From Arcanobacterium pluranimalium (GTDB lineage Bacteria; Actinomycetota; Actinomycetes; Actinomycetales; Actinomycetaceae): DNA of 64,000 bases. The notes beneath the pieces are model-generated. The model did no database searches. It saw only the letters and a program-made list of their open reading frames with translations, and was not told where the DNA came from. This document shows, in pieces, positions 24,870 through 55,693 of the stretch. Both the position numbers and the translations under genes were made by a program. Location: contig NZ_JAFBCS010000001.1 of assembly GCF_016907845.1 (NCBI RefSeq), positions 992,001-1,056,000 on the forward strand, read 5' to 3'. How positions within the stretch are numbered: position 1 is the first letter of the stretch; the number at the start of each line of letters is the position of its first letter.

Positions 24870-27563
24870 GTGTATGTTTACACGAAAATTGCGGGGGGGG
24901 GGCTTCGTAAAAGGCTTTTAGCTGGTGCATCTGCGTCGGCTGTTGTTTTTGCGGGTCTGTTCTCGATTTCCCCAGTGGCTCACGCTGCCACGTATGATCT
25001 TGTTGCTACTAATGGTGGCACAGCGAAAATCGACACGATCACGTCTCTTGATGGTGCTACGACGTATACGGAAACCACGCCATTTACTGGTCGCATACCT
25101 GCGCGCTACAAGATTTCGGCGCATATTAATGATTATTCAGCTTATGCGGCTGGCGATCAGGTAAATATTTGTGTTGCCAACGATAAATCTAGCGTATTTA
25201 ACGTGAACTTCAAGAGTGTGGCACCTAATATTCCTCAAACGAATCCGATCTTCACTGCTTCGGTGAATAGTGGTAATTGTATAACCTTGACTCGTACCAG
25301 TCTTGCTGGTGGTGGGGCACTTGATTTCACCGCGGATGTGCTTGGCTGGCTGTGGGTAGCTGATAGCACGTTTGATACTGGTGCTACCGGAACGGCTGCT
25401 CTCAGTGTTGGTGTTAATCAGTACAAGATTGCATACAATATTCCAGCAACCCCTTATTGGACGCGCGATCAAATCGTAATGGATCCTTACACATTTGCAA
25501 ATAGTGTGCAAATTAATGCCACCGAGGATTCGACTGTGACTTTGCTTGCTGGGATTACAAACCAACCGTATCCTGCTGATTCTTCGCAAGATCAAGTTCT
25601 CTTGGGCAAGTTCACTCCGGCTGCTGGAAGTGCCATTACATCTGTGGATTATTCAGGTTTCATAGCTGCTATGCAGGGAGTATCTGCTACCAATGATTCA
25701 CTCTCTAACGTGTGGATGCAGGTTTCAACGTCGGTGAATCCTACCAAAGTCTCGATTAATCCGGATATGACTTATAGTCAAGCACAAACTGCATTGAAGC
25801 CAGGTCAGTTTGGAATCGTGAAAAATACTGATGGTTCATGGACGTACGCTGTAAACTTTGGTTCGCGCGTGGGCGGCACAGCATTTAGCCCGGCTGATGG
25901 TGATACGATTCCGGCAACGGATACGAACACTGTTAATGCTTTCAATCTTATGAAACAGCAGAATCTGATGTTTTCTACCGCGTTGCTTTCGACCAACCTT
26001 GTGTTCTCTGACCCTGCTTTGAAAGAGTCTGCCACAATGGAGGTAACAACTCCTAAAGGTACTTCGTCTACCACAATTTCTGATTCTCCTGTGTTTAATC
26101 AGGCTGTTGGTCAGACGGCTGTGAAGGTGCATTATGTTGATGTTAAAGGTAATGCGATTGGTACGGTGGATAACTATTATGGTTACCCGGCATCGAATCC
26201 TGATCCAGCAACAGGTGCGAAGACTCCTGATCAGGCTGTTGCTCCGAAGACCATCAATGGTTACGCTTTGGAAACTGATGCGGCGAAAGCTGCTACAGCT
26301 ATCGGCCAACCACAGGCCAATATTCGTACTGCTGCTGGTACGGTAGCGTTCCCTGATTCGGGTATGACTGAGGTGTACTACGTGTATAACCTGCTCGATT
26401 CTGATGGTGACGGCGTGTCTGATCTTGATGAGATTGCTAAGGGTACTGACCCGAACAAGGCTGATACTGATGGTGATGGCGTGTCTGATGGTGATGAGAT
26501 CACTAAGGGTACTGATCCGCTCAAGCCTGATACTGATGGTGATGGCCTGAACGATGGTGATGAGATTGCTAAGGGTACTGATCCATTGAAGCCTGATACT
26601 GACGGTGATGGCTTGTCTGATGGTGATGAGGTCAATAAGTATCACACCGATCCGAAGAATCCTGACACTGATGGTGACGGTGTCAATGATGGTGATGAGA
26701 TTGCTAAGGGTACTGATCCATTGAAGCCTGATACTGATGGTGATGGCTTGTCTGATGGTGATGAGATCGCTAAGGGTACTGATCCATTGAAGCCTGATAC
26801 TGACGGTGATGGCTTGTCTGATGGTGATGAGGTCAATAAGTATCACACCGATCCGAAGAATCCTGACACTGATGGTGACGGTGTCAATGATGGTGATGAG
26901 ATCGCTAAGGGTACTGATCCGCTCAAGCCTGATACTGATGGTGATGGTGTCAATGATGGTGATGAGATTACGCATGGTACTGATCCATTGAAGCCTGATA
27001 CTGATGGTGATGGCCTGAACGATGGTGATGAGATCACTAAGGGTACCGATCCATTGAAGCCTGATACTGACGGTGATGGTGTCAATGATGGTGATGAGAT
27101 TACGCATGGTACTGATCCGCTTGATTCACGGTCCTTCCCGTACCAGTTGACGCTTGATAAGAGCCGTGTTCATCGTGGTGAGCAGGTGACTGCTTCGTTG
27201 TCTGGTTTCAAGGCTGGGGAAGTGGTATCGCTTGAACTACACTCCTCCGTTATTGGACTGGTTCAGAACGTGACGATTGATGCAAAGGGAATGGCAACAG
27301 TTACCTTTACCGTGCCAGCGTCGGCTGAGCTTGGTGTACATCATGTGATGGCTGTGTCTGCTGGTGGTTATCTTGTCCAGCAGCAAGGTCAGTTGGAAGT
27401 GATTGCTGACTCGATCGCACTCGGCGATGCTAGTGCCGGTGGTGCTGGTGTGGCTGGTGGTCTTGCTAAGACTGGTTCGACCAGTCTTGGTCTTGGCCTG
27501 ATTGCCATGATGGCTAGCCTTGCTGGTGTCGGAGCTGTTACGGCACGCCGCAAAAACGCCTGA
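24870..27563 (+). CDS. Cell-wall-anchored surface protein with MucBP-like and TSP3-type repeats
   Basis: About 897 residues. Order: signal peptide ending 'SPVAHAA' (about residue 39), a large unassigned ectodomain (40-410), a MucBP-like domain (about 413-507, 'VKVHYVDVKGNAIG' to 'EVYYVYN'), eleven Asp-rich calcium-type repeats (509-753), an Ig-like domain, and a sorting signal 'LAKTG', membrane helix and 'RRKNA' tail. LAxTG points to a class E-type sortase. The frame shown begins at GTG 24870, which lies inside the GGAGGG ribosome site. The better ATG at 24874 is out of frame by one base because of a G10 tract at 24893; G11 or G8 would restore 'MFTRKLRGG' into the same protein. The gene is probably phase-variable or carries an assembly error. 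Confidence 0.87.
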   Translation: MYVYTKIAGGGLRKRLLAGASASAVVFAGLFSISPVAHAATYDLVATNGGTAKIDTITSLDGATTYTETTPFTGRIPARYKISAHINDYSAYAAGDQVNICVANDKSSVFNVNFKSVAPNIPQTNPIFTASVNSGNCITLTRTSLAGGGALDFTADVLGWLWVADSTFDTGATGTAALSVGVNQYKIAYNIPATPYWTRDQIVMDPYTFANSVQINATEDSTVTLLAGITNQPYPADSSQDQVLLGKFTPAAGSAITSVDYSGFIAAMQGVSATNDSLSNVWMQVSTSVNPTKVSINPDMTYSQAQTALKPGQFGIVKNTDGSWTYAVNFGSRVGGTAFSPADGDTIPATDTNTVNAFNLMKQQNLMFSTALLSTNLVFSDPALKESATMEVTTPKGTSSTTISDSPVFNQAVGQTAVKVHYVDVKGNAIGTVDNYYGYPASNPDPATGAKTPDQAVAPKTINGYALETDAAKAATAIGQPQANIRTAAGTVAFPDSGMTEVYYVYNLLDSDGDGVSDLDEIAKGTDPNKADTDGDGVSDGDEITKGTDPLKPDTDGDGLNDGDEIAKGTDPLKPDTDGDGLSDGDEVNKYHTDPKNPDTDGDGVNDGDEIAKGTDPLKPDTDGDGLSDGDEIAKGTDPLKPDTDGDGLSDGDEVNKYHTDPKNPDTDGDGVNDGDEIAKGTDPLKPDTDGDGVNDGDEITHGTDPLKPDTDGDGLNDGDEITKGTDPLKPDTDGDGVNDGDEITHGTDPLDSRSFPYQLTLDKSRVHRGEQVTASLSGFKAGEVVSLELHSSVIGLVQNVTIDAKGMATVTFTVPASAELGVHHVMAVSAGGYLVQQQGQLEVIADSIALGDASAGGAGVAGGLAKTGSTSLGLGLIAMMASLAGVGAVTARRKNA
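24893..24902 (+). repeat. Poly-G tract (G10) in the first codons of the surface protein
   Basis: Ten consecutive G bases within the first 11 codons. Changing the length by one base switches which start codon is in frame with the main protein, the hallmark of slipped-strand phase variation. Confidence 0.9.
26397..27128 (+). repeat. Eleven tandem 66/69-bp repeats encoding DTDGDG units
   Basis: Eleven repeats of 22 residues (two have 23), each 'DTDGDG-(L/V)-(S/N)-DGDE' plus 'GTDPLKP' or 'YHTDPKNP'. The pair 'DEVNKYHTDPKNP' plus the next unit occurs twice in nearly the same DNA, showing duplication of a multi-unit block. The DTDGDG loops resemble thrombospondin type 3 calcium repeats. Confidence 0.92.
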
Positions 27564-41889: not shown

Positions 41890-43341
41890 ATGGCACAAAC
41901 GCCTGCGCTCAACGGACGTTCAATTCGTCCATTTGGTTTCCGAGACAAGATCGGCTACATGTTTGGCGATTTCGGAAACGATTTCACGTTCATCTTGCAA
42001 GCCATGTTCTTCATGGTTTTCTACACCACGGTTGTAGGCATTAATCCAGCACATGTTGGTACTTTGCTCCTGGTAGCGCGCGTCGTCGACGGTTTTACTG
42101 ACGTGGGCATGGGCATTTTGGTGGACCGACTCCCGGTCAAAGATGGTGGACACAAGTTCAAGCGGTGGATCAAATTCATTGCAATTCCTGTGGCTGTGGC
42201 TTCGGCACTGATGTATATGTCGTTTGTTGGCGATTTCTCAAGCTACACCCTGAAGCTGGTGTGGATGTGCGCCACATATTTCTTGTGGGGATCTATCTTC
42301 TACACTGCGATTAATATTCCTTATGGCTCAATGGCGTCGGTGGTTTCTTCAAACCCAGATCACCGAGCTCAGCTTTCCGTTTACCGCACTACCGGCGCGA
42401 CGCTCGCACAGCTAGTGATTATGACGGTGCTACCTTTGGTTGCTTTCACGAAGAATGCCAAGGGCGTCGCAGTCATGGATGGCACCAGCATGACCGTTTC
42501 CGCTGCTATCTGTTCCGTGCTTGCAGTAGTGTGCTACGTGCTGTGCTATTTCAACGTTGAAGAGCGCGTACCTTCAACTGTGAAATCGAAGTCTGAAGGC
42601 GGCAATGGCATTGGCAAGATGCTTTCGGCGATTTTCACTAACCGTGCTTTGCTCGGTCTCATTGTGGCAGCTCTTCTTTTGCTGGTTGCTAACCTGTTCC
42701 TTGGCGGAATGCTTTCGTTCTTGTTCATGTCGTACTTCGGAAACGGAAAGATCCAGTCTGCAGCCACGCTGGTTGGCCTGCTTCCTGCGCTGTCGTTGAT
42801 CTTCATTGCTCCGTGGGCGTCGAAGAAGTGGGGCAAGACCGAAGTGGGCGCGATTTCCATGCTCATTGCCGGCGTCGTGCTTGTTGCGGCCAATTTCATG
42901 TACATCAAGAGCGCAACTGTGTGGATCATTTTCTACGGTATCGCCATGTTCTTTATCTCCGTATTCAACTACCTTGTGTGGGCATTCATCACCGACGTAA
43001 TCGATTACCAGGAAGTGCGTACTGGTCAGCGCGACGACGCTACGGTTTACGCCGTCTACTCCTGGGCACGCAAGCTCGGGCAGGCGCTCGCGGGCGGACT
43101 TACCGGCTGGGCACTGGGCTGGATTGGCTACAACGCCGAAGCTGCCAAATCCGGCGTGGCCCAAGCTCAAGAGGTAATTGATGGCGTCTACACCACAGCT
43201 AACCTCGTCCCAGGTATCGGCTGTATCTTGGTTGGTTTGGCACTCATCTTCCTCTACCCGTTGAAGAAGAAGCAGATCGAGGCAAATGTGGCGACGCTCA
43301 ACGAACGTCGCGCAGCTGCCGCAGCGAACGCCGTCGACTGA
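41890..43341 (+). CDS. GPH-family sugar:cation symporter
   Basis: A 483-residue, 12-helix membrane symporter of the glycoside-pentoside-hexuronide family (MelB, UidB, XylP relatives). 'YMFGDFGNDFTF' in helix 1, 'RVVDGFTDVGMGILVDR' in helices 2-3 and 'DVIDYQEVRTGQRDDAT' near helix 10 are the classic motifs; the Asp residues in helix 2 bind the coupling cation in MelB. I start at ATG 41890, preceded by AAGGAG; an in-frame ATG 17 codons earlier lacks one. The next genes encode a cytoplasmic GH3 glycosidase and a HAD phosphatase, so it likely imports a disaccharide or glycoside that the GH3 enzyme splits. Confidence 0.9.
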   Translation: MAQTPALNGRSIRPFGFRDKIGYMFGDFGNDFTFILQAMFFMVFYTTVVGINPAHVGTLLLVARVVDGFTDVGMGILVDRLPVKDGGHKFKRWIKFIAIPVAVASALMYMSFVGDFSSYTLKLVWMCATYFLWGSIFYTAINIPYGSMASVVSSNPDHRAQLSVYRTTGATLAQLVIMTVLPLVAFTKNAKGVAVMDGTSMTVSAAICSVLAVVCYVLCYFNVEERVPSTVKSKSEGGNGIGKMLSAIFTNRALLGLIVAALLLLVANLFLGGMLSFLFMSYFGNGKIQSAATLVGLLPALSLIFIAPWASKKWGKTEVGAISMLIAGVVLVAANFMYIKSATVWIIFYGIAMFFISVFNYLVWAFITDVIDYQEVRTGQRDDATVYAVYSWARKLGQALAGGLTGWALGWIGYNAEAAKSGVAQAQEVIDGVYTTANLVPGIGCILVGLALIFLYPLKKKQIEANVATLNERRAAAAANAVD

Positions 43342-43448: not shown

Positions 43449-45224
43449 ATGATGGTGGATCTAACTGCCGCGCCGTTTAATTTGGACGACGACGCAATCG
43501 CTTGGGTGCGTTCGACGATTAACGCGATGAGTATTGAGGAGAAGATTGGACAGCTTTTCGTCAATATGGGTGCGCAGCGCACCGAGGAATATCTCACTGA
43601 GGTGCTCGATAACTACCACATTGGCGCAGTTCGCTACAATCCAGGTACTGCTGAGGAAGTATGGGAGCAGAATTATATTCTGCAAACCAAATCTAAGATT
43701 CCGCTGCTCATTGCCGCTAATACTGAAGCCGGCGGCAATGGTGCCTGCACAGATGGTACCTATGTGGGCTTTGAAGTAAAAGTAGGCGCTACCAACGATC
43801 CTAAGTGGGCCTATGAAATGGGACGTGTATCGGGTATTGAAGCAAGTGCCATCGGCTGTAACTGGTCTTTCGCTCCAATTGTGGACATCATGCGCAATTG
43901 GCGCAATCCGATTATTTCTAATCGTTCCTTCGGTGCTGATCCTGATCTGGTTCTAGAAATGTCTCGTGCCTACATGAAAGGCATTATGGAATCGGGCATC
44001 TTGCCAGCTGCCAAACATTTCCCAGGTGATGGCATTGACGAACGCGATCAGCACCTTTCGGCGTCGGTAAATTCCTATTCAACTGAGGAATGGGACGCCA
44101 CCTTTGGCAAAGTTTATAAAGGTCTTATCGACGACGGCCTGCCCTCGCTCATGGTAGGGCACATTATGCTGCCGAGTTACCAGCAGCATTTCAATCCGAA
44201 CATGACGATTGACGATCTCTTGCCAGCTACCTTGAGCAAAGAAATTTTGACGGATCTGTTGCGCGGAAAGCTCGGCTTTAACGGCGTCGTCGTAACAGAT
44301 GCTTCGCATATGGTAGGACTCACGGGCGCGATGCCACGCCGCGACCTGCTCCCGACGGCTATTGCTGCTGGTTGCGACCTTTTCTTGTTCTTCAACGATC
44401 CGGATGAGGACTTTGAGTGGATGTTTGATGGCTACCGCCGCGGCATTATCACCGAAGAGCGCTTGCAAGAAGCTCTGGAGCGAATCCTTGGCTTGAAAGC
44501 GCGATTAGGTCTACATTCGACGCCGCGCGAACAGATTCTTCCTCCAAAAGCAGAGGCTATGCAGCGGATTGGTATGCCGCAAAACGTTGCCATTGCGAGC
44601 GAACTCACCGATCGTGCGATCACGCTCGTGAAGAACAAGCAGCCTCAGAACTTGCCGCTTAGCCCGGAAAAGACGAAGCGGGTGCTGGTAGTTTCGGTGT
44701 CTGGTCCAAGCAATCCGATCTCGCGCGCATTTGGCGGCGGCGGCGAAAACGTGCACCCTGCTGATCGTGTTGCCGATAAGCTGCGCGAACGCGGTTACGA
44801 GGTGACGCGCCACGAGTCTTTGCTCGATAAATTGGCGCAGATGAGCCCTGAGGAGCAGGCGACGGCGGTGAAGAACGTTTACGCAGGAAAGGCACCTATC
44901 GCTAATCTCACGAAGAACTATGACCTCGTGCTATTAATTTCAAAGATTGATGGCATGATGCAGCCAACCGAGCGCGTGATGTGGCCCGCTACTAAAGGCA
45001 CAGTGGATATCCCATGGTACGTATTCGAAATTCCTACCATTTATGTTTCTACTGCTACGCCTTATGCATTGGTGGACGTTCCCCAGGTCAAGACGTACAT
45101 CAACACTTACGACGACAAAGACTTCACGCTGGATTTGCTACTTGACAAGCTCGAGGGTAAGTCTGAATTCGTAGGGATCAGCCCTGTTGATGCTTTCTGC
45201 GGAAAAATTGACGCACAGATCTGA
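43449..45224 (+). CDS. Cytoplasmic glycoside hydrolase family 3 (NagZ-like)
   Basis: A 591-residue GH3 enzyme without signal peptide. The N-terminal barrel (about 10-360) has 'KHFPGDGIDERDQH' (189-202) with the Asp-x-His dyad (D200, H202) that marks beta-N-acetylhexosaminidases and some GH3 phosphorylases, and the nucleophile D284 in 'VVVTDASHM'. A second alpha/beta domain (about 400-590) is present, unlike short NagZ. GAAGGAG precedes the paired ATG codons. Lying between a GPH symporter and a HAD phosphatase it probably splits an imported N-acetylglucosamine or related beta-glycoside. Whether it hydrolyses or phosphorolyses the bond is open. Confidence 0.87.
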   Translation: MMVDLTAAPFNLDDDAIAWVRSTINAMSIEEKIGQLFVNMGAQRTEEYLTEVLDNYHIGAVRYNPGTAEEVWEQNYILQTKSKIPLLIAANTEAGGNGACTDGTYVGFEVKVGATNDPKWAYEMGRVSGIEASAIGCNWSFAPIVDIMRNWRNPIISNRSFGADPDLVLEMSRAYMKGIMESGILPAAKHFPGDGIDERDQHLSASVNSYSTEEWDATFGKVYKGLIDDGLPSLMVGHIMLPSYQQHFNPNMTIDDLLPATLSKEILTDLLRGKLGFNGVVVTDASHMVGLTGAMPRRDLLPTAIAAGCDLFLFFNDPDEDFEWMFDGYRRGIITEERLQEALERILGLKARLGLHSTPREQILPPKAEAMQRIGMPQNVAIASELTDRAITLVKNKQPQNLPLSPEKTKRVLVVSVSGPSNPISRAFGGGGENVHPADRVADKLRERGYEVTRHESLLDKLAQMSPEEQATAVKNVYAGKAPIANLTKNYDLVLLISKIDGMMQPTERVMWPATKGTVDIPWYVFEIPTIYVSTATPYALVDVPQVKTYINTYDDKDFTLDLLLDKLEGKSEFVGISPVDAFCGKIDAQI

Positions 45225-45233
45225 GGACACACA

Positions 45234-46139
45234 ATGAATATTCCAGCTGCTGCTCAGGTACTTCTTGATTTCCAACCTGAAAAGGATTTCTTCATCGGGA
45301 TCGACTCCGATGGTTGTGCGATTGACGCGATGGATATTAAGCACTACGAGTGCTTTACCCCTTGCTACATCAAGTATTTTGATCTGCAACCTATCTCGAC
45401 GCTCGTGCGCGAGACCGCGATCTTCGTGAATTTGCATTCGACGACGCGCGGGAAAAACCGATGGGTGACTTTAGATTTGATTTTTGATCGGCTCAAGGAA
45501 CGCCCCGAAGTTATCGAGCGAGGTGTGGAGCTTCCCGACGGCGGTGAGTTGAAGAAATTCCTCGCATCGGGTCTGCCGCTTTCGGCTGATGGTATCGAAA
45601 AATTTGCCGCTGAGAACCCGTCAGAGGAAATCGATCGGTGCATTGCCTGGGGAAATGGCGTCAACGAACTGGTGGCGTGGATGGTTCATGGCTGCGCGCC
45701 GTTCCCTGGTGTGCGTGAGGCATTTGAGGAGATGACGGCGGTGGCAGATTGCATGACTGTCTCGGCTGCTTCAATGCAATTTCTTGAGCGAGAATGGGGC
45801 GAGCACGGGCTTGATGACTATATGAAAGTGCTGGCTGGGCAGGAGATGGGCACGAAAGCTCAACACCTTGAATACGCCGCCAAAGGAAAGTACGCCGATG
45901 ATCATATTTTGTTGATCGGTGACGCTCCTGGTGATCGAGACGCCGCTTTCAGCCAAGGTGTGCTGTGGTATCCGATCAATCCTGGTGGGGAAGCCCAATC
46001 GTGGCATCGATTCAAAGATGAAGCTTTGAAGAAATTCATCTCTGGCACTTACCGCGGAGCTTATATGGACTCCTTGGTTGCGGAATACGAAGCCTTATTG
46101 CCAGCGACGCCGCCGTGGCCTACTGTATCGGCGAAGTAG
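45234..46139 (+). CDS. HAD-superfamily phosphatase
   Basis: A 301-residue haloacid-dehalogenase-fold hydrolase. Motif I is 'GIDSDGCAIDAMD' with D24 and D26, motif II probably 'MTVSAAS', motif III a Lys near 'GTKAQHLEYA', and motif IV 'ILLIGDAPGDRDAA'. A large helical cap lies between motifs I and II. GAGG precedes the ATG, 9 bases after the GH3 stop, so the two are cotranscribed. The substrate may be a sugar phosphate from the GPH/GH3 route; this is inference from neighbours only. Confidence 0.83.
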   Translation: MNIPAAAQVLLDFQPEKDFFIGIDSDGCAIDAMDIKHYECFTPCYIKYFDLQPISTLVRETAIFVNLHSTTRGKNRWVTLDLIFDRLKERPEVIERGVELPDGGELKKFLASGLPLSADGIEKFAAENPSEEIDRCIAWGNGVNELVAWMVHGCAPFPGVREAFEEMTAVADCMTVSAASMQFLEREWGEHGLDDYMKVLAGQEMGTKAQHLEYAAKGKYADDHILLIGDAPGDRDAAFSQGVLWYPINPGGEAQSWHRFKDEALKKFISGTYRGAYMDSLVAEYEALLPATPPWPTVSAK

Positions 46140-46163
46140 GTAGGCGCTCACTTAGGTAGGTGC

Positions 46164-46943
46164 TCACTGTGGCGGCTGGTGCTTCATACGCAAGGTAAGC
46201 AGCTCTTGAACCGATTGCTGCGATAGCGACATCGCTGCGGGAAAACGGCCGTTGAGGTCGTTGGATGAGTCTTGCTCAGTGGTGAAGAACTCTGGAAGTA
46301 TTTTTTGCGCGGTTTTAATATCGTCAAATACTGTGCGCAGATGATGCGATAATAGTTGCTCAGCGCCGTCTAGGTCGTGCGCGCGAATTCGATCGAAGAT
46401 TTCGCAGTGCTGTTCATAAAAAATGATGGGTGGCGTGGATTCTTGATATCCGAGGTAGCGTGCTCGGTCAAGATGTGGCTTGGTCGTTGCCACGACGTCC
46501 CATGAGCGCCAATGATTGGCGAGCTTCATCAACGAGGCATGGAAAATTTCATCAAGTATGAAGAAAGCTCGGGCATCGTGGGACTCAGCTGCATTCTTTT
46601 GCTGCGCGAGGTTGTTGGTGATCTCTTGAACTAGTGCAGGGTCGAGTTGAGCTGGAATAGATCGCAAGGAGGCGATTTCGATAGCTTCACGGAGGAACTG
46701 GGTTTCGCGAACGAGTTCGAGGTTGATCTTGGTGACGAAAGTTCCTTTTCGGGGAAACACTTCGATTAGCCCGTCTTTATCGAGCAATACTAGTGCTTCG
46801 CGTACCGGGGTTCGCGATACGTTGAGCTGCGTTGCGAGTTCGGTTTCAGACAGTGCCATCCCTGGTAGGAAAGTGAGATTGATGATTCGTGTTCGAATCT
46901 CTTGATAGACCGATTCGCGGGTAGACGTTGTGTTTTTCACCAA
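46164..46943 (-). CDS. GntR/FadR-family regulator of the hexuronate operon
   Basis: A 259-residue repressor or activator with an N-terminal winged helix (about 10-75, 'LSETELATQLNVSRTPVREAL' across the recognition helix) and a C-terminal FCD ligand-binding domain (about 85-220) whose 'DEIFH' and 'HCEIFDRI' segments carry the usual metal-binding Asp and His. The start is either TTG 46943 or GTG 46940; AGGA lies at a better distance for the TTG. It is divergent from the Nramp-like/uxu operon and three 13-bp repeats sit between them, so it most likely senses a uronate or its product like UxuR/ExuR. Confidence 0.88.
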   Translation of the reverse strand: MVKNTTSTRESVYQEIRTRIINLTFLPGMALSETELATQLNVSRTPVREALVLLDKDGLIEVFPRKGTFVTKINLELVRETQFLREAIEIASLRSIPAQLDPALVQEITNNLAQQKNAAESHDARAFFILDEIFHASLMKLANHWRSWDVVATTKPHLDRARYLGYQESTPPIIFYEQHCEIFDRIRAHDLDGAEQLLSHHLRTVFDDIKTAQKILPEFFTTEQDSSNDLNGRFPAAMSLSQQSVQELLTLRMKHQPPQ

Positions 46944-47073
46944 ATCTGCTTCCTAAGGTGGCTCAAGTTAATTGAACGCAATTCTCTATGGGTTGAAGAA
47001 CCTTCTCTATGAAGAATATTGCCAATGATCGAAATATGCCATCGCGATTGACAATAAGAACACAATTCCATAG

Positions 47074-47112
47074 TATACAAGCAATGTATACAAGAGTTGT
47101 ATGCAAGACGGG
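47074..47112. promoter_or_regulatory. Three 13-bp direct repeats, likely operator of the uxu operon
   Basis: TATACAAG recurs at 47074 and 47087 and as TATGCAAG at 47100, with an exact 13-bp period. The first two are within near-palindromes of the type GTATAC. The position between the GntR gene and its divergent operon fits a regulator site. Confidence 0.6.
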
Positions 47113-47168
47113 CTCAGTACTTTTGCTTGAGTTCACAGTAAACATCTGTAGTTTGCAAAGGAGCGAAC

Positions 47169-48590
47169 ATGGCAGCATCGGAAGTCAACGAAACCGTAAC
47201 GGAAACTACCATTACGGACGATCCGTACACTCTCGATCCTAAAAATATACAAGAACCACCACGCACCTTTAAGGGGTCGCTAAAATTCCTCGGACCAGGA
47301 ATGATCACATCCGCAGCCGTGGTGGGCTCAGGAGAACTACTCACAGCCACAACTCTCGGCGCCAAAGCTGGGTTTATTCTGTTCTGGCTCGTGTTTGTTT
47401 CCACTTTCGTCAAGGTGTTCGTGCAGATTGAACTCGCGCGTTGGTCGATTTCAACTGGTAAGCCAGCCATCACTGGATTTAATGAGATGGGGCCAAAAGT
47501 CAAAGGCCACGGCTGGATGGTATGGCTCGTACTGTCGATGTTCATACAGTTTGCAATCGGGCAGGCAGGCGTGCTCTCCGCAGCAGCTTTCGCGTTCTCG
47601 GCTCTCATGCCGATCGGTGGGGATCCGTTCTCGCTGCTCTCGATTGGAATATGGGTCGCAATTCTCGCTTCTATCGCCATCGCAGTGCACTGGTTCAACC
47701 GGTACGACATGTTGGAGAAAATCTCGACTGTGCTCGTAGTGCTCGTGACGGTCTTCGCCGTCGCCGTCGTCTTTGCGCTGTTTGGAACCGAATACAGCTG
47801 GGGACTGGCTGAAATATCACAGGGAATGCGCTTTAAAATCGGCGTAGGTTCTTTCGGAATCGCCTTGGCAATGTTCGGCCTTACAGGCGTCGGCGCTGGT
47901 GAAGTGACCACCTACACCTATTGGATTGTCGAAAAAGGCTACGCCGCGTGGGCCGGACCAAACGATGGCTCTATGCAGTGGGTCAATCGCGCTCGCGGCT
48001 GGATCAAAGTGATGAAAGTCGATGCGTGGGTTTCGTGGTTCATTTACACAATCTCGACCGCAGCTTTCTACGTCCTCGGTGCAGCAGTGCTCAACCCACA
48101 AGGACTCGTGCCACAAGGAAACGAAGTGATGACCACCATCTCCTCGATTTTCGAAACTGTAGTTGGATCGTGGGGAGGTGCGCTATTCATGATTGGCGGT
48201 GGAGTGGCACTGTTTAAGACGATTCTCGCCAATGTGCCTGGATTCGCGCGTTTGACCACCAATACGCTTTCCGTTTTAGGTGCGTTTAACTGGAACGACG
48301 CCGCGCGACGTGACCGTTGGATGCGCGTCACAATGGTGATTTTGCCTATCACCTGGGCCATCTTGGGTACGGTTGCCAAATCCCCGCTTGCACTGCTCGT
48401 GTTGGCAGGCGTTTTGAATGCGATCTTCCTTATGGGCGTGGCGGTATCAACGCTGCAATTACAGCGCGTGCAAACCGACGACAAGGTAAAAGACGGAGTT
48501 CTTTTCCAAGTTCTGCTCATCATCTCGGCATTCGCGATCTTTGCCCTGGGTCTTTACTCACTCTGGGGTCAGCTGAGCAGCCTTATGTGA
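47169..48590 (+). CDS. Nramp-fold transporter without the metal-binding motif, uronate operon
   Basis: A 473-residue membrane protein with about 11 helices and the Nramp (SLC11) fold: 'FLGPGMITSAAVVGSGELLTAT' occupies helix 1 (read about 40-60). In true Nramps helix 1 carries DPGN; here residues 53-56 read GSGE. The helix 6 metal motif (MPH) is also absent; this region reads 'FGLTGVGAGEVTTY' (about 236-250). The protein therefore probably does not carry Mn or Fe. AGGAG precedes the ATG. As the first gene of an operon with idnD-like, uxuB, uxuA, eda, kdgK and uxaC genes, with no other uronate carrier in that run, it is a good candidate for a uronate or aldonate transporter. That role is inference. 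Confidence 0.82.
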   Translation: MAASEVNETVTETTITDDPYTLDPKNIQEPPRTFKGSLKFLGPGMITSAAVVGSGELLTATTLGAKAGFILFWLVFVSTFVKVFVQIELARWSISTGKPAITGFNEMGPKVKGHGWMVWLVLSMFIQFAIGQAGVLSAAAFAFSALMPIGGDPFSLLSIGIWVAILASIAIAVHWFNRYDMLEKISTVLVVLVTVFAVAVVFALFGTEYSWGLAEISQGMRFKIGVGSFGIALAMFGLTGVGAGEVTTYTYWIVEKGYAAWAGPNDGSMQWVNRARGWIKVMKVDAWVSWFIYTISTAAFYVLGAAVLNPQGLVPQGNEVMTTISSIFETVVGSWGGALFMIGGGVALFKTILANVPGFARLTTNTLSVLGAFNWNDAARRDRWMRVTMVILPITWAILGTVAKSPLALLVLAGVLNAIFLMGVAVSTLQLQRVQTDDKVKDGVLFQVLLIISAFAIFALGLYSLWGQLSSLM

Positions 48591-48644
48591 TCACCGCAAA
48601 CGATAAAAACACAGACAACGAACGAAAATGATAAGAGGCGAACA

Positions 48645-49670
48645 ATGAAAGCAGTAGTTGTGCACGGACCTAAGGATCTGCGCATTGATGAGGTGGCTGA
48701 TCCGGTATGTGGACCTGTAGATGTGCTGGTGCGCATGGAGTGGGGAGGGATCTGCGGTTCTGATGTGGCATATTGGCGCTCAGGAATCTCAGGCACAGCC
48801 GTTTTGCGTGATCCGCTGATTCTCGGGCATGAAGTTGCTGGTTATGTGGCGGAAGTCGGATCAGAGGTAGACGGAGTCGAGGTCGGTGCAAAAGTAGCGC
48901 TCTATCCTGCGAGTTTGGTGGGTGACTATCAAGTTGCTGAGGATATGCGGGCGCGGACTAACTTGTGGCCCGAAGTACGATATTTCGGTTCAGCTGCTTT
49001 TTTGCCACACGAGCAAGGGGGATTTTCAAAATTCCGCATTGTTCGCCCTGATCAATTGCGTTTCTTGCCGCAGGGAGTGACGACGAAAGCTGGAGCATTA
49101 GCCGAACCTTTCGCCGTCGCTATCCATGCGGTACGACGCGCGGGCGACGTCGCAGATAAAACGGTGTTAGTGAACGGTGCTGGTCCGATCGGTTCCCTGG
49201 CTGTCGCAGCTGCCAAAGCTTACGGTGCCCGTCACGTTACTGTAGCTGACCTCAGCGAGCAGGCGCTCGATATCGCCCGCGCTATGGGCGCTGACTGCAC
49301 AATTAATATTTTGCAGGGACAGGAGCTGCCACAAGACGTCGATATCGCTATTGAAGCCTCCGGTGCGCCAGCGGCGATTGGTGGCGTCATCAGCGCAACT
49401 CGTCGCGGCGGAGTGGTGGTGCAGGTCGGTAATCTTCCAGGTGGAGACGTAAGTGCAACCCTTGGAAATATCGTCACTCGTGAGATTGAGTACCGTGGCT
49501 CATATCGCTTCGCCGATGAAATGGATGAGGCGATCCGGCTCCTCGATGGGGTTGTTGATATTTCGCCGCTTCAAACCCATGAATTTGACATTTTGCAAGC
49601 TTGCGAGGCATTTGACGTCGCCGCTGATAGATCGAGCGGATCCTCGAAAGTGATGTTGAAGCTGTCATAA
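48645..49670 (+). CDS. MDR-family sugar-acid dehydrogenase (IdnD-like)
   Basis: A 341-residue zinc-type dehydrogenase most like L-idonate 5-dehydrogenase. Catalytic zinc ligands C37, H62 and E63 ('GGICGSD', 'ILGHEVAG') and the NAD(P) Rossmann motif 'VNGAGPIGSLAV' are intact. The lobe that normally holds four structural-zinc Cys residues is replaced by a Cys-free stretch (about 92-116) before 'YFGSAAFLPHEQGGF'. AGAGG precedes the ATG. It lies 54 bases after the Nramp-like gene and before uxuB, so it probably oxidises a hexonate to a keto-acid that joins the uronate route. Exact substrate unknown. Confidence 0.85.
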   Translation: MKAVVVHGPKDLRIDEVADPVCGPVDVLVRMEWGGICGSDVAYWRSGISGTAVLRDPLILGHEVAGYVAEVGSEVDGVEVGAKVALYPASLVGDYQVAEDMRARTNLWPEVRYFGSAAFLPHEQGGFSKFRIVRPDQLRFLPQGVTTKAGALAEPFAVAIHAVRRAGDVADKTVLVNGAGPIGSLAVAAAKAYGARHVTVADLSEQALDIARAMGADCTINILQGQELPQDVDIAIEASGAPAAIGGVISATRRGGVVVQVGNLPGGDVSATLGNIVTREIEYRGSYRFADEMDEAIRLLDGVVDISPLQTHEFDILQACEAFDVAADRSSGSSKVMLKLS

Positions 49671-49688
49671 CGCATCACAATGAAGCTG

Positions 49689-49735
49689 ATGTTGGCAACT
49701 TTAGGCAACTAAACGGAAGCCAAAGTTGCCAGCAT
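49689..49735 (+). terminator. Hairpin inside the hexuronate operon
   Basis: 14-bp stem with one G-U pair (49689-49702, 49722-49735) built on TTGGCAACTTT/AAAGTTGCC. It lies between the IdnD-like gene and uxuB without a U tract, so it may attenuate or stabilise the message rather than end it. Confidence 0.5.
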
Positions 49736-49830
49736 TAGAATTTAGATAACAGACAAGGTTGTAGGTGTTTTCTAGAGGCGAGGGCGCAAGAAAATGCTCA
49801 ATCTTCGAACCAATTCGTAATCGAGGAAAG

Positions 49831-51420
49831 ATGCAACTCAATTTAGAAAATCTTGATTCCTTGGCACAGCTCGCACCCCAGTTCGATGTGGAGCAGATGC
49901 AAGCACAAGGTAAAGAAAATCCGCGGTGGATTCACATTGGTCCGGGAAATATTTTCCGCATTTTTATCGCGAGGATCGCACACGATCTCATTGCGGCTGG
50001 TCACGAGTGGCCAGTGACCGCCGTCATCCCAATGGATCCGGTGGAACTCGACGTGCAGCTCGCAAAACACGATCTTATGACCTTGGGCGTAACACTCAAT
50101 CCGGACGGTGAACGCGATATCAAAGTTATCGCCGGCATGTGTGAGGGCTTAGCTACGCGTCGTCGTGAAGATTTTGAACGCTTAGTTGAGATCATTCGAA
50201 GCGAGTCTGTCTCACTGATGAGCTTTACTATTACCGAAAAAGGCTATGCCATTCACGATGCGCAAGGTCTGTTGCAAACTGCTGTGGAAGAAGAGATCGC
50301 TTCCGATCCATTCGGATACCATGCCCACACGATGGCTCTCGTGGCTGGATTGTTGTGGCATCGCTTTAATGCTGGTGGCGCGCCAATTACTTTGCTCTCG
50401 ACCGATAACTTCTCCCATAACGGCGATAAGTTGCGCGAATCGGTTCTCACGATTGCGCGTGGGTGGGCACAAGCTGGCACAGTTCCAGAGCAATTCATCA
50501 CCTGGCTTGGCGATGAAGCGAATGTTGCGTTCCCAATTTCAGTGATCGACAAGATCACTCCGCGTCCGAATGACTCGATCGCGGCTGAGCTGGCACAAAT
50601 AGGATTCACTGATATGGCCGTGGAGACTCCCAACCGCGCACCATATGCCGGTTTTGTGAACGCCGAGCCTACCGAATACCTCATTATTGAGGACAAATTC
50701 GCTGGTGAACGCCCGCCTTTTGAAGATTTTGGTGTGAGTATCGTGGATCGAAAAGTCTGTGATGACTTTGAGAATATGAAAGTCACGACCTGCCTTAATC
50801 CATTGCACACAGCGCTTGCCGTAGCAGGGTGCCTGTTGCGATTCCCAACGATTGATTCGGAAATGCGCGATGAGGCTCTCGCGGCGCTCGTCAACCAGCT
50901 GGGCTGGAACGAAGGCCTGCCCGTCGTCGTCGATCCCGGTATTGTGAAACCGGAAGACTTCCTGCGCGAAGTGCTCGAGGTGCGCTTCCCGAACCGCTAT
51001 CTACCAGACGATCCGGCGCGTATTGCGATGGACACCTCCCAGAAGATTCCGATCCGTTTTGGTGAGACGATCAAGAAGTACATCGAGCGCGGTATGGATT
51101 TGGATTCGCTGCACGCGATGCCACTAGTTTTCGCGTTATGGTGCCGTTATCTTATGGCAGTTGCAGACGACGGCGAAGAACTTACGCTTTCGCCAGATCC
51201 TTTGCTTGAGGAGTTGCAAGCGCATGTAGCACATATCCGCTTGGGCGAAGAAACTGACGTTCATGCAGCTCTTGAGCCTATTCTTTCCAATAAACAAATT
51301 TTCGGTGTCGATCTGTATGACACACCACTCGCAACTAAGGTGGAGAAGCTCTTCGCCGAACTAATTTCAGCCCCTGGCGCGGTGCGCGCTACGCTCGACA
51401 AGGAGATGAACACCAAATGA
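49831..51420 (+). CDS. uxuB: Fructuronate reductase / mannitol-dehydrogenase family
   Basis: A 529-residue long-chain polyol dehydrogenase that reduces D-fructuronate to D-mannonate with NADH. The family's K-x5-N-x2-H catalytic set is K317, N323 and H326 in '[11 protein letters not shown]'. '[15 protein letters not shown]' is the N-terminal nucleotide-binding segment, and '[12 protein letters not shown]' a family block. I choose ATG 49831, right after GAGGAAAG; an earlier in-frame ATG has no ribosome site. Its stop overlaps the uxuA start by ATGA. Neighbours make fructuronate the favoured substrate over mannitol or tagaturonate. Confidence 0.9.
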
Positions 51421-52496
51421 AAATGACATTCCGCTGGTACGGCGAAGGATACGATCCAATTCCGCTTCAGTACATCAAGCAGATTCCAGAAATGACCGGA
51501 ATCATGGGTGTGCTATCTGGTAAGCAAGCAGGGGAAGTTTGGGAAGAAGCCGAAATCGGTGAGCTTATTGGTGGTGTGAACGAAGCTGGTCTCGAATGTG
51601 AAGTTATCGAGTCGGTGAATGTGCATGAGGACATTAAGCTTGGTCTGAGCACGCGCGATGAGTACATCGAAAACTACAATAAGAGCCTTGAGAATCTTGC
51701 GAAGTTTGGTGTGAAAGTTGTGGTTTACAACTTTATGCCGGTATTTGACTGGCTGCGCACCGAGCTTGCGCACGTCACTGACGATGGCTCGAATTGTCTT
51801 TACTACGATCACGCACAGATCGAGGGCATGACCCCGCGCGATATTGTGGAAATTACCGCAAAAGAATCAGGTGGACTCACGCTGCCGGGTTGGGAGCCTG
51901 AGCGTTTGGAACGCCTCGATGAAGTCATGCGTTTGTATGAAGACGTCGATCACAACAAGATGCGCGACAACTACCGTTACTTCCTAGAGGGCATTATCCC
52001 CACCGCTGAAAAAGTTGGCATCAAGATGGCCTGCCATCCTGACGACCCAGCTTGGGATCTTTTCGGCCTGCCACGTATTTATCGCAATCGCGATGATATG
52101 GACAAGATCGCGAAGCTTTACGATTCGCAGTACAACGGCTTCTGCATCTGTTCCGGTTCGCTCGGTTCGAACCCAGATAACGATGTGCCAGCTATTTTCC
52201 GTGAATTTGGTGAGCGTGGCTTGATGAACGCAGCGCATGTGCGCAACGTGAAGTACTTAGGGCCGAAGAAATTCCACGAGGCTCCGCACCCGTCGTCTAC
52301 CGGCGATCTCGACATGTTCGCCATCATGGAAGCGATTTACGATACCAATCCGGATGTTTATATTCGCCCAGATCACGGCCGTATGATTTGGGGCGAGACT
52401 GGACGCCCCGGCTATCCGCTCTACGATCGCGCCCTCGGTGCGGTGTACTTGAACGGCTTGTGGGAATCAATTCACAAGATGAAGACTCGTAACTAG
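51417..52496 (+). CDS. uxuA: Mannonate dehydratase
   Basis: A 359-residue TIM-barrel enzyme that dehydrates D-mannonate to 2-keto-3-deoxygluconate. The start '[15 protein letters not shown]', '[13 protein letters not shown]', '[15 protein letters not shown]' and '[13 protein letters not shown]' are hallmark UxuA blocks with the metal-binding Cys and His residues. Length matches the shorter UxuA proteins of Gram-positive bacteria. It overlaps uxuB by 4 bases, so the two steps fructuronate to mannonate to KDG are translationally coupled. Confidence 0.95.
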
Positions 52497-52525: not shown

Positions 52526-53167
52526 ATGGCTATCCCATCTGCTCGTCCGTTCTTGGAAAAGAACCCGATTGTGCCAGTTGTGGTGCTGGATCGAGAAGAA
52601 GATGCGCTACCAACTGCAAAAGCGCTGGTGGCAGGCGGTATTACATCGGCTGAAGTCACCTTTCGTACGCCAGTAGCTGCGCAAGCAATTGCGCAGATGG
52701 CACAAGTGGAGGGAATCACGGTTGGCGCTGGAACTGTTGTAACTGCAGATCAGGCGAATCGTGCGATTGATGCCGGCGCACAATTCTTGGTTTCACCAGG
52801 CTTTTCTACTGAGGTAGCGAATGTAGCTAGTGAGCGCGAGGTTGCATTCTTGCCTGGCATCGCCAATCCAACCGATATTATGGCTGCTTTGGCATTTGAC
52901 CTTGACGTAATGAAATTCTTCCCGGCGGTGCCGCTCGGGGGACTGCCGTTGGTCAAAGCAATGGCAGCGCCGTTCCCTCAGCTCAAATTCATGCCTACGG
53001 GCGGCATTGGTCCAGACAACATCCGTGAATGGCTCGCAATTGACGTGATTGCTTCAGTGGGTGGCTCTTGGATGGTGACTCGGCAGATGGTTGCCGAGGG
53101 GCAATTCGACGAGATCACGCGCCTTTCAGCTGAGGCGATGGAGATTGTTGGGCAGGTGCGGTCATGA
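52526..53167 (+). CDS. eda: KDPG aldolase
   Basis: A 213-residue class I aldolase splitting 2-keto-3-deoxy-6-phosphogluconate into pyruvate and glyceraldehyde 3-phosphate. The Schiff-base lysine is K130 in 'VMKFFPA', and the general acid/base E43 is in 'SAEVTFRT'. 'GAGTVVTADQANRAIDAGAQF' spans the phosphate-loop region near 67-87. GGAA precedes the ATG. Overlaps the kinase gene by 4 bases. Confidence 0.95.
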   Translation: MAIPSARPFLEKNPIVPVVVLDREEDALPTAKALVAGGITSAEVTFRTPVAAQAIAQMAQVEGITVGAGTVVTADQANRAIDAGAQFLVSPGFSTEVANVASEREVAFLPGIANPTDIMAALAFDLDVMKFFPAVPLGGLPLVKAMAAPFPQLKFMPTGGIGPDNIREWLAIDVIASVGGSWMVTRQMVAEGQFDEITRLSAEAMEIVGQVRS

Positions 53168-54267
53168 GCGCTTTGCAACTTCGGCCAGCAAATGAGTGCC
53201 GCTACGACATCCTCTCTTTGGGCGAGGTAATGTTGCGCCTTGATCCAGGTGAAGGGCGTATTCGCACTGCTCGATCATTCAAAGCCTCCGAAGGTGGCGG
53301 TGAATACAATGTGGCACGCGGTATGCGACGCTGCTTCGGAAAGCGAGCCGGCGTCGTCACTGCCCTGGTAGCAGACGAGATCGGAAAGCTTGTTGAAGAT
53401 TGTATTCTTCAAGGCGGCGTCGATACGTCGTTCATCAAGTGGGTGGAATCCGACGGCGTTGGGCGCACCGTGCGCAATGGTTTGAACTTCACCGAGCGCG
53501 GCTTTGGCCTGCGTGGAGCGGTAGGGAACAACGATCGCGGCAACACCGCCGTCTCCCAAATGAATGCCGACGACGTGGACTGGGAGCACCTATTTGGTGA
53601 GCTCGGCGTGCGTTGGTTCCACACGGGTGGAATTTTTACGGCACTGTCTGAAAGCGCTGCTGAGGTGGCCAAGCAGGCGATGGCGACCGCGAAGAAATAC
53701 GGCACGATCGTCTCCTACGATCTCAATTATCGTCCGTCGCTATGGAAGTCTATTGGCGGTCAGGAAAAATGCCAAGAAGTAAACCGTGAGCTGGCACAAT
53801 ACGTCGATGTGATGATCGGTAACGAAGAAGACTTCACGGCTTCGCTCGGATTCCACGTTGAAGGCGCAAACGAGAATCTTGACAATCTCGAAGTTGAGTC
53901 ATTCAAAAAGATGATTGAAATGGCCGCAGCCGCTTACCCGAATTTCCAGGTGGTGGCGACGACGATGCGTCAGGTTCGCACCGCTACCGTCAACGATTGG
54001 GGTGCGATAGCCTGGGAGCGCGAGCAAGGATTTGCTCAGGCTACGCAGCGCGACGGTTTGGAAATCCTCGATCGCGTGGGCGGAGGAGATTCTTTCGCTT
54101 CAGGATTGATCTATGGCTTGATGGAGTTTGGAGACGTCGCCAAAGCGGTGGAATATGGTGCTGCGCATGGTGCCCTTGCCATGACGACACCGGGGGATAC
54201 GTCGATGGCTTCACTGGCAGAAGTTGAGCGACTTGTGGGCGGCGGTAGCGCTCGCGTGCAGCGATAA
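53164..54267 (+). CDS. kdgK: 2-keto-3-deoxygluconate kinase (PfkB family)
   Basis: A 367-residue PfkB-family kinase phosphorylating KDG for the aldolase encoded just upstream. 'LGEVMLRLDPGEGRI' and 'GGGEYNVARGM' form the N-terminal sugar-binding part, and 'RVGGGDSFASGLIYGLM' holds the catalytic Asp; the anion-hole triple Gly is the KdgK variant of GAGD. It is longer than E. coli KdgK by about 55 residues because of insertions in the middle. Start ATG overlaps eda by ATGA. Confidence 0.92.
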   Translation: MSALQLRPANECRYDILSLGEVMLRLDPGEGRIRTARSFKASEGGGEYNVARGMRRCFGKRAGVVTALVADEIGKLVEDCILQGGVDTSFIKWVESDGVGRTVRNGLNFTERGFGLRGAVGNNDRGNTAVSQMNADDVDWEHLFGELGVRWFHTGGIFTALSESAAEVAKQAMATAKKYGTIVSYDLNYRPSLWKSIGGQEKCQEVNRELAQYVDVMIGNEEDFTASLGFHVEGANENLDNLEVESFKKMIEMAAAAYPNFQVVATTMRQVRTATVNDWGAIAWEREQGFAQATQRDGLEILDRVGGGDSFASGLIYGLMEFGDVAKAVEYGAAHGALAMTTPGDTSMASLAEVERLVGGGSARVQR

Positions 54268-54283
54268 GAGTGGGAGAAATATC

Positions 54284-55693
54284 GTGAAAATGCCACTGGT
54301 GTTGGATGACGATCGGCTTTTTCCGGTTGAGCCTAATGCGCGGGCGATTGCGCGTGACCTTTACGAGAGTGTTGCGCATGAGCCGATTATTTCGCCCCAC
54401 GGGCATGTTGATCCGCGGCTTTTGCTTGATAACAAGCCATTTTCTGATGCTGCGAACCTCTTCTTGACTTATGATCATTATGTGTTTCGGCTGCTCAACT
54501 CGGCCGGAGTTGATTTGCATGAGTTGGGAGTGGGGAAGTCGGATCCGGTAGATCCGCGCGCTGCTTGGCGGATTTTCTGCCGGCATTGGCGGCTTTTTGA
54601 CGGTACTTCTTCGGGGTATTGGCTCACGCACGAACTCGTGACGCTGTTTGGGATCGACTGCGAACCCAGTGAAGAGACAGCGGACGAGATTTTTGACGCG
54701 ATTCAGGAGAAATTGGCTCAGCCCGAGTTCCGCCCGCGTGCATTATTCGATTCGTTCCCGATTTCTTTTTTGGCGACGACGGATGACCCGCTTGACTCTC
54801 TGGAATACCATGCGGTGCTTGCGAACGATCCGAGTTTCTCGGGTCGAGTGGTGCCCACGTGGCGTCCAGACGCATATGTGAATGCGCGTAAACCGGAGTT
54901 TATATCGCGAGTGGAAGCTCTCACGGCATCGGTAAATGCGCCGGTAGATAGCTTGGCTGGCTACCTCGAGGCATTGCGTGCTTCCCGCGCTCGCTTTATC
55001 GAACACGGAGCTGTCTCTGCCGATTTTGGTGTTGCACATCCGCTCACGGTTGATCTTGATGATGCAGAACTTGAGACGCTGTATCGGAAAGCCGTGATCG
55101 GCAGTTTGACCGCTGAGGAAGCTGATGCTTTCGAGGGTGCGATGCTGTTGCGCTTTGCTGGTATGAGCGTCGATGACGGTTTGGTTATGACGATTCACCC
55201 CGGTGTGCTGCGTAATCATCACGAGCAATCTTTTGAGAGCTTTGGAGCGGACACCGGCCACGATATTCCAGTGGCAACAGAGTTCACCAAGGCACTCCGC
55301 CCTATGCTCAACAAATATGGGAGTAATCGCGATTTGCACGTGGTGCTCTTTACGCTCGATGAGACGGTGTATTCGCGTGAAATCGCTCCGCTTGCTGGTT
55401 TTTATCCCAGCGTATTTATTGGGGCGCCGTGGTGGTTTATCGATGCGCCGGATGCTATTGCGCGATTCCGAGCTGCTACAACGGAAACAGCCGGGTTCTC
55501 TCGTGCATCTGGGTTCATTGATGACACTCGTGCTTTCCTATCTATCCCGGCGCGCCATGATATGTCGCGCCGAGTGGATTCGGCATTCTTGGCGCGTTAT
55601 GTGGCCCAAGGGCGCATCTCCTTGGCGGCTGCGCAGCACTGGATTAAGCACCTGACTGTTGACCAGCCAAAAAAAGTTTTCAAAATCGACTAA
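54284..55693 (+). CDS. uxaC: Glucuronate/galacturonate isomerase
   Basis: A 469-residue amidohydrolase-fold isomerase converting D-glucuronate to D-fructuronate (and galacturonate to tagaturonate). The metal motif 'SPHGHVDP' has H39 and H41, 'FLATTDDPLDSLEYH' and 'WWFIDAPDAI' are other UxaC blocks. GTG 54284 is chosen for its GGAG; a longer frame overlapping kdgK lacks one. It closes the hexuronate operon, although it catalyses the first step. No uxaA/uxaB for the galacturonate branch are seen, so glucuronate is the likely natural substrate. Confidence 0.95.
   Translation: MKMPLVLDDDRLFPVEPNARAIARDLYESVAHEPIISPHGHVDPRLLLDNKPFSDAANLFLTYDHYVFRLLNSAGVDLHELGVGKSDPVDPRAAWRIFCRHWRLFDGTSSGYWLTHELVTLFGIDCEPSEETADEIFDAIQEKLAQPEFRPRALFDSFPISFLATTDDPLDSLEYHAVLANDPSFSGRVVPTWRPDAYVNARKPEFISRVEALTASVNAPVDSLAGYLEALRASRARFIEHGAVSADFGVAHPLTVDLDDAELETLYRKAVIGSLTAEEADAFEGAMLLRFAGMSVDDGLVMTIHPGVLRNHHEQSFESFGADTGHDIPVATEFTKALRPMLNKYGSNRDLHVVLFTLDETVYSREIAPLAGFYPSVFIGAPWWFIDAPDAIARFRAATTETAGFSRASGFIDDTRAFLSIPARHDMSRRVDSAFLARYVAQGRISLAAAQHWIKHLTVDQPKKVFKID

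Follow-up and report, generated by a model that had tools for sequence, protein, structure and literature searches.

To our knowledge, a metal ion is the substrate in every firmly demonstrated case of transport by a protein of the SLC11/Nramp family (PF01566). The Nramp-related Mg2+ transporters (NRMTs) are marked by the motif DxxG-TxxA/T (PMC8806188). A 2026 preprint on BfraNramp deals with Nramp-related proteins lacking DPGN and MPH, and an excerpt of it calls the Nramp-related groups besides the NRMT-like and G-motif 3 groups ‘entirely uncharacterized’ (PMC12873925). Bacillus subtilis YcsG was once annotated as a 5-oxoproline importer, an annotation that is disputed (PMC10448178), and a switch of the LeuT fold between organic solutes and metals was raised for the Nramp outgroup by Shin et al. 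(PMC4072509). As to sugar acids, Haemophilus influenzae breaks down L-gulonate by means of GulD, UxuB, UxuA, KdgK and KdgA, with a TRAP carrier, GulPQM (PMC5788505). An alginate locus with an Nramp gene is named in one legend (PMC6431674), and the excerpts of PMC3924187 and PMC9007349 contain nothing that bears on a link between Nramp proteins and sugar acids. Among the matches listed from the open-access literature, none was noticed to connect Nramp proteins with sugar-acid transport.

The window, the whole 64-kb stretch of Arcanobacterium pluranimalium DNA that was analysed, contains a run of genes for an Nramp-fold protein, a Zn-type dehydrogenase (ZnADH), UxuB, UxuA, Eda, KdgK and UxaC, with a GntR-FCD regulator gene divergent from it (Table 1). 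The original prediction placed the Nramp gene at the head of an operon with uxuB, uxuA, eda, kdgK and uxaC, divergent from a GntR regulator; the regulator and the leading position were borne out, and the second gene of the run, encoding the Zn-type dehydrogenase, had been omitted. UxuB and KdgK are recognised by family-level matches only (mannitol dehydrogenase and PfkB), under the NCBIfam equivalog cut-offs, and the start codons of uxuB and uxaC are our choice. The Nramp and dehydrogenase genes are separated by 54 bp and the dehydrogenase gene and uxuB by about 160 bp, the remaining junctions being gaps of 25–29 bp or 4-bp overlaps. Because of the 160-bp gap, co-transcription of the Nramp–ZnADH pair with uxuB is considered only likely. 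Of the two proteins encoded between the GPH symporter and the regulator, the 591-aa one is presumably a GH3 enzyme, and the 301-aa one matched no family in a Pfam search and displays HAD-like motifs by eye.

Table 1. Features of the hexuronate gene run and its surroundings, in window coordinates.
Feature	Coordinates	Strand	Basis or remark
GPH-family (glycoside-pentoside-hexuronide) cation symporter	41893..43341	+	TIGR00792 296.7 bits, cut-off 231.35
591-aa protein of conserved block	43449..45224	+	syntenic copy in L209, 79% identical
301-aa protein of conserved block	45234..46139	+	syntenic copy in L209 (G020), 62% identical
Segment without counterpart in the orthologous block of G020 (GntR, Nramp, ZnADH)	46140..49833		synteny
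GntR-FCD regulator, divergent	46164..46943	-	PF00392, PF07729
Three TTGTATACAA-like repeats, exact 13-bp spacing, candidate GntR operators	47071..47106		over the -10 of the promoter match
Nramp-related (GSGE clade) transporter, 473 aa, ATG start	47169..48590	+	PF01566, NF037982; heads the gene run
GSGE, residues 53–56, helix 1	47325..47336	+	opposite canonical DPGN
TGVGAGE, residues 239–245, helix 6, no MPH	47883..47903	+	Glu245 conserved
Zn-type medium-chain dehydrogenase, L-idonate 5-dehydrogenase-like	48645..49670	+	PF00107/PF08240
uxuB, mannitol-dehydrogenase-family fructuronate reductase	49834..51420	+	PF08125, PF01232; named by context
uxuA, D-mannonate dehydratase	51417..52496	+	PF03786 462 bits; TIGR00695 over cut-off
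eda, KDPG aldolase	52526..53167	+	PF01081; TIGR01182 over cut-off
kdgK, PfkB-family kinase	53164..54267	+	PF00294; role by context
uxaC, glucuronate isomerase	54293..55693	+	PF02614; NF002794 over cut-off

The membrane protein that heads the run passes the Pfam Nramp cut-off (49.2 bits against 29.8) and scores 134.3 bits (cut-off 50) with NF037982, the ‘Nramp family divalent metal transporter’ model. A profile–profile comparison with 12 canonical Nramps gave a probability of 96.5 and an E value of 7.4e-10 over 381 columns, and all PDB sequence matches, four for the protein itself and 11 for a profile of its clade, were Nramp-family chains. The Nramp pattern claimed for this protein is thus confirmed, as is, by the alignments, the claim that helix 1 reads GSGE at the DPGN site and that helix 6 is without MPH. 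DPGN occurs in all 14 canonical rows compared; Glu56 falls in the column of its Asn, not of its Asp. Among 61 full-length rows of the GSGE clade, a count which leaves out four truncated rows and includes one row twice (L112 and L129 are one plasmid), Gly53 and Glu56 never vary, position 54 holds Ser in 51 rows and Ala in ten, and Glu245 is kept in 60 and replaced by Asp in the remaining one, the helix-6 register being less certain, as the gap falls at different places with MAFFT and with hhalign. In helix 3, Gly134 (61/61 rows) occupies the position of a Glu found in 14/14 canonical rows (MAFFT). None of the canonical Asp, Asn, Met, His and helix-3 Glu, all present in the 14 canonical rows, was found in the GSGE-clade rows aligned. 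Since G[S/A]GE is retained in every full-length row, its presence is not due to chance. Lys82 in helix 2 was considered as a clade-specific carboxylate ligand and rejected, being common to 10 of 12 other Nramp-related proteins. A structure predicted from a two-sequence alignment had a mean pLDDT of 34.9 and was useless.

In a quick tree of 86 rows, built by maximum likelihood, the 60 GSGE proteins form a single clade (SH-aLRT 95) that excludes 14 canonical Nramps and 12 other Nramp-related proteins. The signature of the clade, G[S/A]GE with TGV[G/A]xx[E/D], is present in the window protein, which falls in subclade I (support 99, 19 rows). L116 and L117 branch deepest in the clade; both are long branches of unsure placement, and truncated loci were put into subclades by hand, by identity and motif. 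At E <= 1e-40, close relatives are present in 42 genomes out of 396 in the order and in 7 out of 394 in the class, with the source genome counted; for the phylum, a cut-off of E <= 1e-25 gave 8 genomes out of 396. A scan of genome contigs for close relatives returned A. bovis alone, whose orthologue is 95% identical, and a scan of viral contigs for further relatives found none. There were 20 plasmid matches, the more similar of which add Alphaproteobacteria, Rubrobacter, Streptomyces, Microscilla and a haloarchaeon. The clade is seen in Actinomycetota, Alphaproteobacteria, Bacteroidota and Halobacteria, its coverage outside Actinomycetota consisting of a few plasmid records.

Comparison with related genomes divides the locus into an older block and an added segment. 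In G020, a member of the same family but of another genus, the order is GPH – GH3 – 296-aa protein – uxuB – uxuA – eda – kdgK – uxaC, all genes pointing the same way; UxuA is 90% identical to that of the window, and the block contains no Nramp, ZnADH or GntR gene. The spacer between the 296-aa protein gene and uxuB is 130 bp in G020 versus about 3,694 bp in the window. The genes flanking it, at 62% and 64% identity, are orthologous, and the GntR, Nramp and ZnADH genes were therefore either gained in the window lineage or lost in that of G020. A second genome of the same family, G010, has a divergent IclR gene and then GntP permease – uxuB-uxuA-eda-kdgK, with neither uxaC nor ZnADH alongside. 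Its GntP (PF02447) shares 60% identity with E. coli GntP, which bears the RefSeq name fructuronate transporter; its gene lies directly before uxuB, and the corresponding operon is thus headed by a sugar-acid permease that belongs to another, unrelated family. A third relative with UxuA (G021) showed no such arrangement in the 13 kb around its locus. Within the genus, two of 10 genomes have both the GSGE Nramp and UxuA, and the other eight have neither.

The older block also bears on the argument that the run holds no other uronate carrier, which proved weaker than it looked, because the ancestral block already contains a GPH symporter. Its gene ends 3.8 kb upstream of the Nramp gene, belongs to the part conserved in G020 and has a syntenic copy there (L209) at 49% identity. 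The source genome has two further MFS_2 matches over the cut-off and no TRAP DctM. A GSGE gene was found within seven genes of uxaC at none of 20 uxaC loci from other genomes. Carriers were recognised at nine of these: TRAP (L189, L205), ABC (L190, L191, L194), MFS_2/GPH (L199, L202) and, by similarity, GPH (L192, L197); 10 proteins were scanned in the process, two of which were VKOR and not carriers.

Upstream of the Nramp gene there is a sigma70-like promoter match (47048–47076), at chance level when taken alone (four found versus 3.1 expected). The three repeats listed in Table 1 are three of the four TTGTATACAA-like matches (at most one mismatch) in the 64-kb window, where 1.0 is expected and 3 of 100 shuffles reach four. 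The fourth site is TTGCATACAA, at 25429–25438. A. bovis keeps all three repeat positions, at two, two and one mismatches. Such sites (at most two mismatches, -250 to +60 of the gene) are present at none of the 19 subclade I loci besides A. bovis (L061), which leaves the operator idea unsupported outside the genus. The TNGTNNNACNA pattern has no site within the GntR–Nramp spacer. An M-box riboswitch is present in a subset of NRMT Mg2+ transporters; in the region 46000–50000 no metal riboswitch, the M-box included, was found, a point against metal import. An Rfam MIR161 match at 49052–49144, inside the dehydrogenase gene, is far under the gathering score and is taken as chance.

The dehydrogenase encoded next to the Nramp protein is 35% identical to E. 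coli IdnD, 29% to LgoD and 26% to RspB; IdnD is the best match of four E. coli enzymes (the fourth being Ahr), a comparison that held no polyol dehydrogenase and gives no substrate assignment. In subclade I, a ZnADH gene lies within five genes of the Nramp gene, downstream and on the same strand, at 15 of 21 loci. In E. coli, such dehydrogenases are encoded beside permeases, as in idnD-idnT and lgoD-lgoT. The window has family-level matches for all five enzyme types of the L-gulonate pathway, the GulD sequence itself lying outside the comparison.

The genes around GSGE members were surveyed at 65 loci. Genes were called by a codon-usage model; the calls for L112, L114 and L117 match the PLSDB annotation by eye, barring some starts and small genes. 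A core sugar-acid gene lies within five genes at 26 of 65 GSGE loci (25 of 64 with the duplicate plasmid counted once) versus one of 26 other PF01566 loci, one more control locus, L157, having been lost by the gene caller. This contrast is inflated, because the survey markers are proteins from the GSGE loci themselves, picked after the loci had been seen, and the counts are not independent events, since many loci are closely related. By group, the core gene is present at 2/21 loci of subclade I, 17/20 of subclade II, 5/11 of subclade III, 1/11 of subclade IV and 1/2 of the deep relatives, and in the controls at 1/14 canonical and 0/12 other Nramp-related loci; one subclade thus supplies 17 of the 26 GSGE loci. 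The original prediction named relatives that are never near sugar-acid genes as evidence against it, and these counts show otherwise.

Several loci may serve as examples. L109 has genes for an aldehyde dehydrogenase (ALDH), a KDPG aldolase, an IlvD/Edd dehydratase and a mandelate-racemase-type enzyme; L114 and L115 have a four-carbon acid sugar kinase, PdxA, an aldo/keto reductase and an aldolase, with no second permease. A UxaA-family hydrolase gene neighbours the GSGE gene at L112, a mannonate dehydratase gene at L117 (the haloarchaeal plasmid), and a family-43 glycosidase gene with SusCD-type genes at L116. Within seven genes on either side, as far as the locus reaches, no other protein with at least four predicted transmembrane segments was found at L108, L109, L114, L115, L126 and L130. 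Some side observations concern second transporters. Two sugar-acid neighbourhoods encode another Nramp-related protein: one at L112:15364-16761 (GSGEF with GAGGANNL), 22% identical to the window protein, and one at L104:6838-8208 (GTGDL), 21% identical. NhaA-type Na+/H+ antiporter genes adjoin Nramp-related genes at L107:7665-8912 and L139, a hint of sodium coupling.

Several results count against a sugar-acid role. In subclade I, to which the window protein belongs, uxuBA are next door at two of 21 loci, those of the window and A. bovis, and L062 has phosphoketolase, Pta, acetate kinase and TIM-barrel genes in place of uxuBA. No common theme emerged from the neighbours scanned at eight of the 11 subclade IV loci. 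In subclade III, L128 and L131, from Rubrobacter-like genomes, are urate catabolism operons: L128 has xanthine-dehydrogenase-type, uricase and OHCU decarboxylase genes together with its own xanthine/uracil-type permease, and L131 has uricase and a MOFRL-family gene, which we take to encode glycerate kinase. The GSGE gene at L125, also of subclade III, has genes for argininosuccinate synthase, ArsR, an LMW phosphatase and a methyltransferase as neighbours; these surroundings resemble an arsenic cluster, and the gene order at L127 is the same. Other carriers are also encoded in GSGE clusters, namely KdgT (L085), SLC13 (L111) and MFS (L081). L104 has its second Nramp and a TauE gene nearby, and L113 lies behind a siderophore-type cluster.

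The most probable reading, at roughly 0.58, is that the Nramp-fold protein acts as a cation-coupled importer of a sugar acid or a closely related organic acid. It draws on the sugar-acid neighbourhoods of three of the four GSGE subclades and of the haloarchaeal relative, and on the GntP-type permease that directly precedes uxuB in G010. The proposal of an SLC11-fold transporter for sugar acids gains from these neighbourhoods and from the GntP analogy, and needs amendment as to its cargo: as GSGE genes were found near none of the 20 uxaC loci and the Nramp gene arrived with a dehydrogenase, a hexonate that enters before UxuB appears a likelier substrate than D-glucuronate itself. The simplest reading would make the protein the carrier of an added hexonate branch. 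In such a branch, the protein, with its LeuT-type fold, would import a hexonate, the likeliest being L-gulonate or one closely related to it, although L-gulonate in particular is an unlikely choice when taken singly. The dehydrogenase would oxidise C5 of the hexonate, giving D-fructuronate, whose breakdown UxuB, UxuA, KdgK and Eda would complete. The Nramp–ZnADH module would then open a second way into a pathway for which UxaC, perhaps supplied by the GPH symporter, may provide another. The most likely role of Glu56 and Glu245 would be in binding either the coupling cation or the sugar hydroxyls.

The main rival, somewhat improbable to us, is an importer of Mn2+ or a similar divalent metal that supplies the metal-dependent enzymes of the co-expressed pathway. 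UxuA-type, PdxA-type and HpaI-type enzymes use divalent metals; mannonate dehydratase being a metal enzyme, a metal supplier would also fit beside it, and PdxA/kinase-type genes lie near 14 of the 65 GSGE loci. The two conserved acidic residues of helices 1 and 6 are available to such an importer, but the canonical Nramp metal-site residues and the NRMT motif are both absent from the window protein. Metal import agrees with the NCBI family name of NF037982, divalent metal transporter, and with excerpts reporting that an Acinetobacter baumannii strain deleted for mumT contains less Mn and grows less well on urea (PMC5050338) and that overexpression of ycsG in B. subtilis raises cell Mn (PMC10448178). 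The supply of Mn2+ is weakened as an explanation because the partner in the module is a Zn-type dehydrogenase and not UxuA, and because the orthologous UxuA operons of G020 and G010 do without the Nramp gene. In subclade II, a 2-hydroxyacid dehydrogenase, not known as a Mn enzyme, is the commonest neighbour (17/20 loci), and the source genome encodes a canonical MntH separately, with DPGN, its one further PF01566 gene.

It is decidedly improbable that the protein imports some other small, polar compound (a polyol or ketose, for example) for the Zn-type dehydrogenase, with the proximity of uxuB incidental. A PDB search with the dehydrogenase gave 191 bits for human sorbitol dehydrogenase and 188 bits for L-idonate 5-dehydrogenase, and uxuBA are not next door at 19 of 21 subclade I loci. 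Against this reading stand the best match to IdnD among the four E. coli enzymes and the acid-specific enzymes that neighbour subclade II and III loci and the archaeal relative. UxaC, moreover, is present in 20/20 subclade I Nramp genomes versus 11/26 other GSGE genomes and 85/198 genomes in the order, a contrast confounded by lineage, as 13 of the 20 share one genus code.

Least probable is a carrier of a sugar acid chelated with a divalent metal, which would make the metal and organic-acid readings both partly right and has a parallel in CitM-type carriers, which move citrate as such a chelate: the conserved Glu56 and Glu245 beside sugar-acid genes fit it, as do the altered Mn levels described in excerpts for Nramp-family proteins of other catabolic operons, but the canonical metal ligands are absent.

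Returning to import of a sugar acid, a broader proposal can be put forward tentatively, as somewhat less probable than its opposite: that the GSGE proteins as a whole make up a widespread family of carriers for organic anions (sugar acids) in the SLC11/Nramp superfamily, in which the paired Glu residues of helices 1 and 6 replace the metal site and bind either a chelated metal or a coupling cation. Should this hold, a non-metal cargo would be of a new kind for the Nramp family and would show the LeuT fold's switch between organic solutes and metals, the superfamily having moved between the two on one fold. The NCBI annotation of the clade as ‘divalent metal transporter’ would be corrected, the aldonate, uronate and tetronate pathways would gain uptake steps that they now lack, and re-testing as substrate carriers would be merited for the disputed Nramp-related proteins of 5-oxoproline, urea and urate operons. 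An added module beside an intact older block makes the present locus a clean, testable case.

Compared with the canonical SLC11/Nramp proteins (MntH, DMT1), the window protein shares membership of PF01566 and profile similarity along the chain; it differs in lacking DPGN, MPH and the helix-3 Glu and in being encoded in a catabolic operon. The NRMTs, including EleNRMT, are likewise Nramp-related and without the canonical site, whereas the window protein has GxxE in helix 1, lacks DxxG-TxxA/T and has no M-box in the region given above. B. subtilis YcsG/MntG and A. baumannii MumT are Nramp-family proteins of catabolic operons too, but of different pathways, those of 5-oxoproline and urea, and with evidence for Mn2+ (PMC10448178, PMC5050338). 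The GntP family (E. coli GntP and IdnT; PF02447) is unrelated and occupies the position before uxuB in G010 as well as a place in the E. coli idn operon. The GulPQM-GulD-UxuB-UxuA-KdgK-KdgA system of H. influenzae, as excerpted, has the same five enzyme types as the window, at the family level, with a TRAP carrier there (PMC5788505) and the Nramp-fold protein as the proposed carrier here.
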